From contig JACAFF010000005.1 in the NCBI GenBank assembly GCA_013388455.1, positions 1 to 64,000 of the forward strand: a stretch of 64,000 bases of DNA, read 5' to 3'. Shown here piece after piece: positions 19,524 through 43,503 of this stretch. Every line of letters begins with the position of its first letter. Positions within the stretch are counted from its first letter, which is position 1. This DNA is from Nitrospirota bacterium. Lineage in GTDB: Bacteria; Nitrospirota; Thermodesulfovibrionia; Thermodesulfovibrionales; SM23-35. Under the pieces are notes generated by a model that did no database searches, was not told where the DNA came from, and worked only from the letters and a program-made list of their open reading frames with translations. The translations under genes and the position numbers were made by a program.

Positions 19524-19763
19524 CTAATCCTTGAATAATCCTGAACCGTCCTCTTCCTGTTTTTCATCGATTTCTGAGAGGGCTTTTTTCACTTCCTCCT
19601 CTGTAGTCCTCAGGCTCCCTTTGCAGAACTTGATGAGATGTGATGCCCTCTTCACTTTCTCGGTGAGAACATCAACATTGATATTCTCAGATTCCATATC
19701 GTTTATAATCTTCTCAAGCTCCTCAATAGCTTGAGAATAAGTCATCCTCTTTTTTTCGCTCAT
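19524..19763 (-). CDS. xseB: Exodeoxyribonuclease VII small subunit
   Basis: The 79-residue protein has the XseB pattern: MTYSQAIEELEKIINDMES, then VDVLTEKVKRASHLIKFCKGSLRTTEEEVKKAL. It forms the small subunit of exonuclease VII, a single-strand-specific nuclease. The start overlaps the end of xseA by 41 bp, the usual coupled arrangement. Confidence 0.93.
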   Translation of the reverse strand: MSEKKRMTYSQAIEELEKIINDMESENINVDVLTEKVKRASHLIKFCKGSLRTTEEEVKKALSEIDEKQEEDGSGLFKD

Positions 19764-21159
19764 CTTTAGTTTCCCTCTCTATATCTTCTACGATGCTTAT
19801 GATAAAACCACTACTCAATCTGGTATTTATTATATCATTCTTTATAACAGTGGCTGTATCTCTTAAGGCTCTCCCTTTAAGATAAGTTATACTATATCCG
19901 CGCTTGAGAATATTTTGAGGGTTAAGAAGACGTATCCTGTTTTCATAGTTTTCAAGCTTCTGTTTCTGAATGGAAAATATATGAGATGGATAGATATTTA
20001 GCACTTTCATGAAATCCTTTATTTTCTGATAACTATTCATAATCAACATTTCTGTAACATTTCTAAGATTTCCTTCATACTCCTTTATACTTATAGAAGG
20101 TGCTCTGAGTGCTGAAAGTGCTGTTGCCTGAAGATCATAGATATTGTTTTGCAATGAAACCTTAATATTTTTCATATAATTCAAGGTAGAGACAAAAAAA
20201 ATGTCAGCAGATGTCCTTAAATAATGCTTTTCCCTTTCCATAAAGTCATTTACTTTAATTTTAAGCCTGTGTTGCAGTTCATCTATTTTTTCTTCGAAAT
20301 CCTTTGATTTCGTAATCAGAAACTCTGCAACAGCAGTTGGCGTGATGAGTCTTTTGTTGGCTACATGGTCAGCAACAGTCTCATCCTTTTCATGGCCTAT
20401 ACCGGTAAATACGGGAAGTGGAGAAAGTGCTATTGTCTTTGCTAAAGAATAACTATCAAAACAGTGCAGGTCTATAACAGATCCACCTCCTCTGATAATC
20501 ACTATAGCATCGAAATGTTTTCTTTGCTTTATGCATTTTTCAAGAGCGGTTATTACAGATTGCTCTGCTTTTTCTCCTTGCATATAGGCTTGAAATAATT
20601 TGTAATTAAACCTGTATCCGTAAGGATTATTATTTAATCTACTCTGAAAATCTCCGTAACCTGCTGCTCCTTCCGCGGATATCACAGCAATTCTCTGAAT
20701 AACTGGAGGTAATTCAAGAAGTTTATTCTTTTTAAGAATGCCTTCTTTTGTGAGTCGTTCGATGATTTCTCTCCGCTTGAGCATCATTTCACCCAGTGTA
20801 TAGCGAGGATCGATTTCTTTGATATTCAGCGACAAACCATGCACTCCGTGATAAGTTACTTGCACCAGCATAAGAATCTTCATGCCTGCCTGAAGATTCT
20901 GACCTGTAAGAGCTTTAAATTTTACTGTGATCTGATTAAAATTGTAAGACCAGATCGTAGCTTTCATTTTCGCTAATATAATGTCTTCTTTTTTTTCGAC
21001 TAAATCCAGATAACAGTGACCTGAATTAAAGTGAAAATTGATTTGTGCTATTTCGGCAATAACCCAGTAGTCATCATAAAGCGATGATTGAATAAGAGTT
21101 TTAATAAGAGAAGCAAGTTCACTCAATGTTAGGTATACCATATGTTTAGTATATGACAT
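19723..21159 (-). CDS. xseA: Exodeoxyribonuclease VII large subunit
   Basis: The protein has the N-terminal OB domain (YWVIAEIAQINFHFNSGHCYLDLVEK) and the catalytic region with RIAVISAEGAAGYGDF, VIIRGGGSVIDL, FTGIGHEKDETVADHVANKRLITPTAVAEFL, and a C-terminal coiled stretch. The frame stays open to 21435, but the upstream part is not family-like and runs antisense through a mini-gene and its terminator, so the real start is near 21159 (MSYTKHMVYLTLSEL) or 21177. No clear ribosome site marks either start. xseB follows. Confidence 0.9.
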   Translation of the reverse strand: MSYTKHMVYLTLSELASLIKTLIQSSLYDDYWVIAEIAQINFHFNSGHCYLDLVEKKEDIILAKMKATIWSYNFNQITVKFKALTGQNLQAGMKILMLVQVTYHGVHGLSLNIKEIDPRYTLGEMMLKRREIIERLTKEGILKKNKLLELPPVIQRIAVISAEGAAGYGDFQSRLNNNPYGYRFNYKLFQAYMQGEKAEQSVITALEKCIKQRKHFDAIVIIRGGGSVIDLHCFDSYSLAKTIALSPLPVFTGIGHEKDETVADHVANKRLITPTAVAEFLITKSKDFEEKIDELQHRLKIKVNDFMEREKHYLRTSADIFFVSTLNYMKNIKVSLQNNIYDLQATALSALRAPSISIKEYEGNLRNVTEMLIMNSYQKIKDFMKVLNIYPSHIFSIQKQKLENYENRIRLLNPQNILKRGYSITYLKGRALRDTATVIKNDIINTRLSSGFIISIVEDIERETKDERKKEDDLFSSY

Positions 21160-21260
21160 AGAATTATTTTTTAACATAACTAAGCCATTTTTATTCATAA
21201 TAAGATTAAGATATAGACAGGACATGGTAATTAATGGGAAGAATAAACTGGTTAGTAGTA

Positions 21261-21289
21261 TTGAAATCAATTTAGCATTTCTGTAGAAT
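21261..21289 (+). promoter_or_regulatory. Promoter of the 17-codon mini-gene
   Basis: TTGAAA (21261-21266) and TAGAAT (21284-21289) are separated by exactly 17 bases. Transcription would start near 21296, just before the ribosome site and mini-gene. Confidence 0.55.
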
Positions 21290-21318
21290 ATTTGTATAAC
21301 TAAGAGGAGGTAATGATT

Positions 21319-21372
21319 ATGTGTAAAAAATGTGGATGTGGGACAACTACTAAAAAGAAAAAGAAAAAATAG
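21319..21372 (+). CDS. 17-residue Cys/Lys mini-protein
   Basis: The reading frame encodes MCKKCGCGTTTKKKKKK. A textbook GAGGAGG ribosome site lies at 21304-21310, 8 bases before ATG 21319 (an in-frame ATG at 21313 is too close to it). A promoter precedes it and a strong 18 bp terminator hairpin follows 6 bases after the stop, so it is a complete, independent transcription unit of about 120 nt. Three cysteines in CxxCxC could bind a metal and the Lys tail could bind nucleic acid; both are guesses. The same RNA could also act as a small RNA. Confidence 0.6.
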   Translation: MCKKCGCGTTTKKKKKK

Positions 21373-21378
21373 AGAAGT

Positions 21379-21414
21379 AAGAAAGGCAGGGTCTTTAAAG
21401 ACCCTGCCTTTCTT
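21379..21414. terminator. Strong bidirectional intrinsic terminator
   Basis: A perfect 36-base palindrome: the left half AAGAAAGGCAGGGTCTTT (21379-21396) is exactly complementary to the right half. The GC-rich core GGCAGGGTC/GACCCTGCC is flanked by A-rich and T-rich ends, so it can end transcription of the mini-gene. Confidence 0.85.
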
Positions 21415-21529
21415 GTCTGCAACAAAATTGCCCAAAATAAAAATAACCTTTATTTATCTATCTTCTTGATTCTTTTAACAATTCTCTTTAAACTGTAAAA
21501 TCAATATTTAAAATAGAAAGAAATAAAAC

Positions 21530-22576
21530 ATGTATAATATCAGCAAATGCATGAACTTAAGGATAAGATTTTTATTGTTATTTTCCATATTTGTCCTTAT
21601 TGTTTCTTTTGCTTTTGCACAGAAAAAGCAGGAAGTTTTACTGAAATTCAGTAAGCAAGATAACCTTATGCGAATTGTTTTTAAAGCAGAAGAACAATTT
21701 GTTAATAAGGCAAAAATAACCACTACAGAATCACAAATAAAAATAGAGTTTAATGAACCCTTCCTATTAACTTCTGAAAAAGTTTTTCCTTTCGAGATAT
21801 TGACAGAAGAGAAATCTGTTATTGTTAATCTCCAAGAAAAAAGTGAAATAAAGATCTTCAGGCTTCCTTCACCCCCACGCCTTATATTTGACATAAAAAC
21901 TAAGGAGGTAGAACAGGAAAAACAAAGCGAGAAAATTCCTAAAAATCAAAAAGAAAAAGAGCAGGAAAATGCACAAGAAAAAGTGCCTGATAAACAGATT
22001 TCAGGAAGGTTATCGAAAGTTTTTATTTTAGATCCAGGACATGGTGGTTATGAATTCGGGATCACCTCTGGAAATATTAATGAAAAAAATATTACGCTAA
22101 ATCTTGCAAAGATTTTGAACGATATCCTTGTTAAAAAAGGCAGAAAGGTTTTTCTAAGTCGTAAGGTTGATCAATTTCTTTCATTAAGTGACAGAATTAC
22201 TTTTATTAATAAAAATAATCCGGATATCTTCATAAGCCTTCATGTTTCGATTTCGAATAATTTTATCATTTACAGTCCTTACTTTAATGAACAGAGTCCG
22301 ACTGAAATAGCAGATTTTTACAGTATCACTTCAAGACAGAAGAAACATATCAGGAAAAGCAAGATTCTTGCTGAGAGTATTGCTAAAGCTTTAAAGGAAG
22401 AATTTAACATGAGTGTTATTCGAAGAGAAATGCCTCTTCCAGTTCTTCATTCAACGGCTGCACCAGCTGTTATGATAGAGTTTCCCTTAACAAAATTCAT
22501 GAGTTACGACCAAAAAATAAATGAAAAGCTCGCAGATACTATAATTAAAGGGATTGAATTATATGAAAAGCAATAA
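21530..22576 (+). CDS. N-acetylmuramoyl-L-alanine amidase (AmiC-type, Amidase_3)
   Basis: The 348-residue exported enzyme cleaves the peptide from N-acetylmuramic acid in peptidoglycan. It has a signal peptide (about residues 11-30, ending FAFA), an AMIN-like beta domain (about 35-122), a charged Glu/Lys/Gln linker (125-158) and an Amidase_3 domain. Zinc ligands are H171 (DPGHGG), E185 and H238 (SLHVS), with the catalytic E317 (MIEFPL). The start may instead be ATG 21551 (MNLRIRF). A GerMN protein gene follows 23 bp downstream. Confidence 0.92.
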   Translation: MYNISKCMNLRIRFLLLFSIFVLIVSFAFAQKKQEVLLKFSKQDNLMRIVFKAEEQFVNKAKITTTESQIKIEFNEPFLLTSEKVFPFEILTEEKSVIVNLQEKSEIKIFRLPSPPRLIFDIKTKEVEQEKQSEKIPKNQKEKEQENAQEKVPDKQISGRLSKVFILDPGHGGYEFGITSGNINEKNITLNLAKILNDILVKKGRKVFLSRKVDQFLSLSDRITFINKNNPDIFISLHVSISNNFIIYSPYFNEQSPTEIADFYSITSRQKKHIRKSKILAESIAKALKEEFNMSVIRREMPLPVLHSTAAPAVMIEFPLTKFMSYDQKINEKLADTIIKGIELYEKQ

Positions 22577-30983: not shown

Positions 30984-31059
30984 GCGGGAATAGCTCAGTT
31001 GGTAGAGCACAACCTTGCCAAGGTTGGGGTCGCGGGTTCGAACCCCGTTTCCCGCTCCA
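30984..31059 (+). tRNA. tRNA-Gly (GCC)
   Basis: The 7 bp acceptor stem GCGGGAA/TTCCCGC, D arm TAGCTCAGTTGGTAGAGC, anticodon GCC at 31017-31019 in loop TTGCCAA, T arm with GGTTCGAACCC and an encoded CCA are all present. Confidence 0.97.
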
Positions 31060-31064
31060 TAACG

Positions 31065-31139
31065 ACAGTTATCAGTTGTCAGTGAACAGTGATCAGTTAA
31101 AAAGGTGTTTAAACTAACAACTGAAAACTATTCACTAAT
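31065..31139. repeat. Short degenerate CAGTTATCAGTT-type repeats between two tRNAs
   Basis: The spacer between tRNA-Gly and tRNA-Cys holds near-repeats of CAGTTRTCAGT and CAGTGATCAGTT, and then AACAACTGAAAACTATTCACT, which is a rough reverse complement of the first part. It looks like a small slipped or palindromic repeat and codes for nothing. Confidence 0.45.
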
Positions 31140-31152
31140 CAATATAGTTTAG

Positions 31153-31228
31153 GGCGGCGTACCCAAGTGGCTAAGGGAGAGGTCTGCAAAACCTTTATGC
31201 AGCGGTTCAAATCCGCTCGCCGCCTCCA
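31153..31228 (+). tRNA. tRNA-Cys (GCA)
   Basis: Acceptor stem GGCGGCG/CGCCGCC, anticodon GCA in the loop CTGCAAA, T arm GCGGTTCAAATCCGC and an encoded CCA at 31226-31228 define this tRNA. Its last 22 bases overlap the 3' end of the protein gene on the opposite strand. Confidence 0.97.
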
Positions 31229-43058: not shown

Positions 43059-43134
<76 letters not shown>

Positions 43135-43145
43135 ACACCATCAAG

Positions 43146-43219
43146 CGCGCCTGAGAGGATTTGAACCTCCGACCCTCGGCTCCGGAGGCCGATGCTCTAA
43201 TCCACTGAGCTACAGGCGC
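43146..43219 (-). tRNA. tRNA-Arg (CCG)
   Basis: On the minus strand: acceptor GCGCCTG/CAGGCGC, anticodon CCG in loop CTCCGGA, T arm GGAGGTTCAAATCCTCT. The CCA end is not encoded. Confidence 0.95.
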
Positions 43220-43285
43220 GATGACGCTTGATCTTAACTCTTAACTGTAAATTTTTAACTACTAATTTCCCAATGCAAAATTTGC

Positions 43286-43362
43286 TGGGGTGAGTGAGGG
43301 GACTCGAACCCCCAACACCTGGAGCCACAGTCCAGTGCTCTGACCATTGAGCTACACTCACC
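43286..43362 (-). tRNA. tRNA-His (GTG)
   Basis: On the minus strand: acceptor GTGAGTG/CACTCAC with the extra G(-1) paired to C73 that marks tRNA-His, anticodon GTG in loop CTGTGGC, T arm GGGGGTTCGAGTCCCC and an encoded CCA. Confidence 0.96.
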
Positions 43363-43400
43363 ATCTAACAATAGTTTACAGTAAATAGTATTTAATTCAC

Positions 43401-43426
43401 TGCAAATTTATTTTACAAAATTTGCA
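43401..43426. repeat. Inverted repeat in a tRNA spacer
   Basis: TGCAAATTT (43401-43409) and AAATTTGCA (43418-43426) form a perfect 9 bp inverted repeat directly after the 3' end of tRNA-Arg(TCT). A related GCAAAATTTGC lies beside the tRNA-His end (43275-43285). They may be processing or weak stop signals. Confidence 0.45.

Positions 43427-43503
<77 letters not shown>

Follow-up and report, generated by a model that had tools for sequence, protein, structure and literature searches.

The window analyzed here comprises 64,000 nucleotides of contig C5 from a 2.1-Mb Nitrospirota genome assembled in 44 contigs. It contains a gap of ~370 bp between two divergent genes, xseA on the minus strand and a gene for an N-acetylmuramoyl-L-alanine amidase (PF01520; positions 21530 to 22576, plus strand), and a candidate mini-gene lies on the plus strand within this gap. 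A check of the sequence located every part that a sequence-only reading had described between 21261 and 21414. These are a σ70-like promoter, TTGAAA-N17-TAGAAT (21261 to 21289, with TTGAAA at 21261 to 21266 and, 17 nt on, TAGAAT at 21284 to 21289); the Shine-Dalgarno sequence GAGGAGG (21304 to 21310), 8 nt 5′ of the ATG; a frame of 17 codons, MCKKCGCGTTTKKKKKK, followed by a stop (21319 to 21372); and an intrinsic terminator with a T-rich 3′ arm (21379 to 21414).

The promoter is the top σ70-like site within 3 kb (10/12), a score that, taken alone, is matched by 4% of shuffles. The terminator had been described as a perfect 18-bp hairpin; a perfect dyad of 36 nt is indeed present, but it folds as a 16-bp stem with a tetraloop, and it can potentially act in both directions. 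An RNA of 125 nt that begins at the predicted start and ends shortly after the hairpin has a fold z score of −5.0, with 0 of 200 shuffles equally stable, and nearly all of this stability comes from the terminator. The predicted unit is thus monocistronic and ~120 nt long, consisting of promoter, Shine-Dalgarno sequence, 17 codons, and terminator.

The minus-strand xseA frame is open across the mini-gene, as had been pointed out, and runs from 19723 to 21435 (570 amino acids). Its Pfam domains for the exonuclease VII large subunit (PF13742 and PF02601) start only at residue 102, i.e., at ~21132, and the mini-gene is therefore intergenic. The part of the frame that crosses the mini-gene has no homology to XseA. 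The true start of xseA is most likely 21141 or 21159, and its probable true extent is 19723 to 21141. That automatic annotation could hide the mini-gene is consequently plausible, because the 5′ stretch of the frame that overlaps it does not belong to genuine XseA. The xseA gene is a neighbor and no part of the unit; the amidase gene, 3′ of the terminator, is not kept in this position in relatives. An Rfam search of the window at the gathering score returned only tRNAs and gave no structured-RNA match in the mini-gene region. The six tRNA genes of the window form two clusters, at 30984 to 31225 (plus strand) and 43062 to 43503 (minus strand).

Recurrence of the mini-gene in the GTDB family

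We scanned both strands of 20 genomes of the GTDB family (92 Mb) with the pattern TGYAARAARTGYRRNTGYGG, a degenerate pattern of 20 bases, which fixes Cys2, Lys3, Lys4, Cys5, Cys7, and Gly8, and leaves tail, start, and stop free. The peptide is encoded in 8 of the 20 genomes, representing 6 of 15 genera, with one copy in each. Multiplying out the degenerate positions gives an estimate of ~0.04 matches expected by chance, and the same pattern read backwards, used as a control, had 0 matches in these 20 genomes. No mini-gene was found outside the family among 140 genomes of the order.

Seven of the eight copies encode the 14-mer MCKKC[GNS]CGKG[GS]KKK followed directly by a stop, and the window copy (G000) differs from them only in its tail (TTTKKKKKK versus KGGKKK). 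Position 6 is G, N, or S; these residues are small and turn forming and would suit a tight C-x-C. A Lys tail is found in all eight copies, without being demanded by the pattern. Each copy has an ATG with a Shine-Dalgarno sequence directly 5′ of it. The spacing between the two is 8 nt in G000, G002, G006, G011, and G013, the latter four carrying GGAGG. In seven of the eight copies, TTG[AC]A[AT]-N17/18-TA[AG]AAT is found 28 to 37 nt 5′ of the ATG (the promoter region of G002, for example, reads TTGAAATCATTCCAGTGTGTCTGTAAAAT and that of the window TTGAAATCAATTTAGCATTTCTGTAGAAT); this motif, composed after the sequences had been seen, occurs in 118 of 160,000 shuffled upstream regions. A hairpin lies within 45 nt 3′ of the stop in every copy, matched by at most 5% of shuffles. 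Codon changes at the peptide amount to 82 synonymous and 39 nonsynonymous, with the Cys and Lys counts biased by the design of the search; because the pattern fixed those residues, synonymous counts at them are not independent evidence. The unbiased evidence is instead the tail, length, start, Shine-Dalgarno spacing, promoter, and hairpin.

This recurrence is the strongest argument against a chance origin. The frame is short and A-rich, and most genomes of the order, including 12 of the 20 in the family, have no mini-gene, as would be expected of a functionless open reading frame (ORF) arising by chance in an A-rich intergenic stretch. Against the ~0.04 matches expected and none in the control, however, the same peptide appears in 8 of 20 genomes with matching Shine-Dalgarno sequence, promoter, and hairpin, and we consider a chance ORF extremely improbable. 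The mini-gene is very probably genuine, though unannotated, and we infer that its frame is translated.

The surroundings of the copies are not conserved. Neighboring genes are unrelated between genera (a RuBisCO-like gene and an outer-membrane-type gene in G006, compared with xseA and the amidase gene in the window) and are shared only by two genomes of one genus, so that the mini-gene is linked to no single neighbor. Peptide, Shine-Dalgarno sequence, promoter type, and terminator recur together at different loci, which bears out the earlier proposal of an autonomous mini-gene; judged from the sequences, it forms a compact monocistronic unit that does not depend on its genomic context. These observations also bear on the reading of the frame as a leader peptide, in which translation of Cys and Lys codons would sense charged tRNA or metal and control the terminator ahead of a downstream gene. 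Like known leader peptides and attenuators, the mini-gene combines a Shine-Dalgarno sequence, a short ORF, and a terminator directly 3′ of it, and the next gene is codirectional in G000 and G002. In G006, G011, G018, G013, and G007, by contrast, the next downstream gene is convergent, which leaves nothing downstream to control and rules out cis-regulation in these five genomes. With no neighbor common to different genera, hairpin sequences that are unrelated, and a peptide that is conserved where its position is not, attenuation is very improbable as an explanation.

A third reading, raised at the outset, is that of a small regulatory RNA, possibly dual function, in which the short ORF would be incidental. 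An autonomous transcription unit of ~120 nt with a strong terminator is what such an RNA would look like. When genera are compared, however, the regions flanking the ORF agree at an almost random level (9 to 21 matches in 60 downstream positions), while the peptide persists, even in its tail, which the pattern had left free. What the copies share beyond the frame is a type of promoter and a hairpin of some kind, but no RNA sequence, and there is no Rfam match; the dual-function proposal was rejected on these grounds, and a regulatory RNA seems improbable. It had been proposed to look in relatives for the peptide start with the same terminator, and conservation of the hairpin without the peptide was to count against a gene. 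The pattern found is the opposite: the peptide recurs in 8 of 20 genomes, and the hairpins are unrelated in sequence between genera.

Likeness to the N terminus of HypB

At the extreme N terminus of Escherichia coli HypB, MCxxCGC is a high-affinity Ni(II) site with a subpicomolar Kd, in which Cys2, Cys5, Cys7, and the terminal amine act as ligands, Ni(S)3NH2 (PMC7055735). The window peptide starts with MCKKCGCG and so carries the N-terminal MCxxCGC metal-binding motif of the HypB prefix (NF053667 and NF053668); as in the prefix (E. coli MCTTCGCG; HypB_prefix_1/2), three Cys residues and the terminal amine would be available as ligands. In one study by isothermal titration calorimetry (ITC), the isolated peptides CTTCGCG and MCTTCGCGEG bind Cu with a Ka of ~1e6 M−1, and neither Ni nor Zn is bound by them (PMC6848105). 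Because these isolated peptides bind Cu, the motif can bind metal without the rest of HypB; because the same study saw Cu and no Ni or Zn, the identity of the metal of the mini-peptide is uncertain. This identity of motif, together with the published in vitro data on HypB peptides, lends support by analogy to the earlier suggestion of a minimal metal-binding peptide.

The differences from HypB are equally clear. The window peptide stops after codon 17 and has no G3E GTPase domain, and the stand-alone gene, for 14 to 17 amino acids ending in a Lys tail, comes with a promoter and a terminator of its own and lies in no hyp operon. Mini-peptides also tolerate G, N, or S between the last two Cys residues, unlike the HypB prefix. 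At 17 amino acids the window peptide is too short for a profile scan, and relatives were scanned instead; a related Omnitrophota 20-mer has its best score to NCBIfam HypB_prefix_1 (E value, 0.0033; 18.8 bits), below the cutoff of 30. On these grounds the mini-peptide falls outside the HypB family, although by analogy it would work like the HypB prefix. Its shortness, high Cys content, and presumed thiolate metal binding also recall bacterial metallothioneins and comparable small metal buffers, but it has just three Cys residues in 14 to 17, and no metallothionein family model matched the longer relatives at the cutoff.

The genome's single HypB is encoded on C41, away from the mini-gene, and lacks the prefix. 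Fourteen HypBs were found in the family; the 13 with an intact N terminus are all prefix-less, and the 14th is truncated. Where examined, genomes without the mini-gene encode this same short type of HypB, and a link between the mini-gene and the type of HypB was rejected, since prefix-less HypBs occur with or without it and the two form no complementary pattern. Genes of the NiFe-hydrogenase type (PF00374) are present in all 20 family genomes and are therefore not discriminating, so that a link to hydrogenases was likewise rejected. The mini-gene does not track HypB, and it is dispensable, because it is absent from 12 of 20 genomes, all with hydrogenases. Given this patchy presence, hydrogenase maturation can also proceed without the mini-gene.

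As a separate observation, four [NiFe]-hydrogenase large subunits have in-frame TGA codons in the N-terminal L1 motif (L318 in G002:C20, L319 in G013:C10, L320 in G007:C15, and L321 in G011:C49), which reads RIUAVUPT or RICGVUPT and not RICGIC. These codons are candidate selenocysteine replacements at an uncommon site. The mini-gene is present in each of the four genomes (post hoc Fisher P of ~0.014).

A detached HypB-like prefix is the best reading of the mini-gene, because the motif binds metal on its own, the HypBs of the family are prefix-less, and hydrogenase genes occur in 20 of 20 genomes. By analogy with HypB, we think it somewhat probable that the product is a free-standing, thiolate metal-binding micropeptide that serves as a buffer or carrier. 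The monocistronic micro-gene would give rise to a cytosolic peptide of 17 residues whose N-terminal MCxxC[GNS]CG forms a compact thiolate metal site, while its Lys-rich end, TTTKKKKKK in the window and KGGKKK in relatives, may anchor the peptide on an acidic protein or on nucleic acid. The peptide would then buffer or carry Ni or Cu(I)/Zn and so do the work of a HypB prefix separately from HypB. Here we infer the metal binding, the metal, and the role of the tail alike.

Similar micro-ORFs in Omnitrophota and phages

In Omnitrophota, the phylum of G401, we found short forms with the same layout (MCKKCGCQKKKPRK, MCKSCGCKKKPRK, MCKTCGCQDKKKPKPK, and MCATCGCRSKPKKKAKKKKK) and forms of 36 amino acids (e.g., MCKTCGCSPCKCGKKIVKGVCEGCGKKSDECSCLKK), many of them with Shine-Dalgarno sequences and terminators. 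Six of the latter (L048, L051 to L053, L055, and L056) have ~10 Cys residues in the metallothionein-like arrangement MC[KQ][TV]CGC[ST]PCK.CGK.....C.GCGK...C.C.K. These peptides match no Pfam or NCBIfam family above the cutoff; against Pfam Metallothio_Euk, the 36-amino-acid forms reach an E value of 0.02 and 15.3 bits (cutoff, 22). In Pseudomonadota, the pattern occurs in 3 of 349 genomes, in each case in HypB itself, and most of the exact occurrences of MCKKCGC across the GTDB collection are internal or out of context.

Among the viral contigs of IMG/VR, MCxxCGC starts behind a strong Shine-Dalgarno sequence are common, the largest group being MC[TAS][AS]CGCGLKDKKDPGYGKGPAKKKAAPAKKAAPKKK and others MCATCGCRKKPKPKPSKGR and MCKSCGCGKKHKKKK; a control pattern with CxxxC spacing had 0 matches in 2.9 million viral contigs. 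Phage micro-ORFs with MCxxCGCG and a Lys-rich stretch (e.g., MCTACGCGLKDKKDPGYGKGPAKKKAAPAKKAAPKKK) share the N-terminal motif, the Shine-Dalgarno sequence, and the basic tail with the mini-gene, and several are followed by terminators. They differ in encoding 13 to 50 amino acids and in lying within phage structural or lysis regions, and they have no PHROG match. Two further kinds of frame were seen in viral contigs. MCHKCGHDNS(K/E).., of 12 to 16 amino acids behind GGAGG, occurs in L093, L104, L106, L120, and ~20 others and could be either a further phage micro-ORF or the beginning of a gene that overlaps. In the phage frames L248, L250, L278, and L299, the Cys-rich stretch MCASCGCGCK..KGCKC.CK.CR.AR runs straight into a downstream protein starting MSVEK.., as a Cys micro-ORF that is fused to this protein or overlaps it.

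The tails of these peptides bear on a further alternative, in which the product would be a tiny basic protein that binds nucleic acid, the ribosome, or another polyanion through a Zn-stabilized Cys knuckle and a poly-Lys tail. That the Lys tail could bind RNA, as had been suggested, is possible. All eight family copies have this tail even though the pattern left it free, and the Omnitrophota and phage versions carry long basic tails (e.g., GPAKKKAAPAKKAAPKKK); for Omnitrophota and the first viral scan, however, the search pattern itself required K tails. The tail varies while MCxxCxCG is constant, a contrast partly due to search design, and with three Cys residues and no fourth ligand a structural Zn knuckle would be sparsely coordinated, although the terminal amine could serve. 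We regard a binding role of this kind as rather unlikely and favor the detached, HypB-like metal site.

Sequences this short cannot prove common ancestry across bacterial phyla and phages. Relatives of the mini-peptide gave no family above the cutoff in Pfam, NCBIfam, or PHROGs; tblastn against phage and plasmid records gave no match, and a literature search for “MCKKCGCG” did not find it. Gene callers and family libraries miss such mini-genes. We suggest, tentatively and at somewhat less than even confidence, that peptides of 13 to 40 residues with MCxxC[GNS]CG and a Lys tail make up a widespread but unrecognized class of micropeptides that bind metal and occur in Nitrospirota, in Omnitrophota, and in many uncultured phages. 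They would be free-standing HypB nickel grips that buffer or deliver metal, and their genes would rank among the shortest autonomous protein genes known.

A gene of 14 to 17 residues with its own promoter and terminator and with conservation across genera is near the lower size limit of protein genes. It raises the questions of whether the metal-binding prefix of HypB can exist as a separate gene and whether detached thiolate grips may act as metal buffers or carriers in cells and phages.
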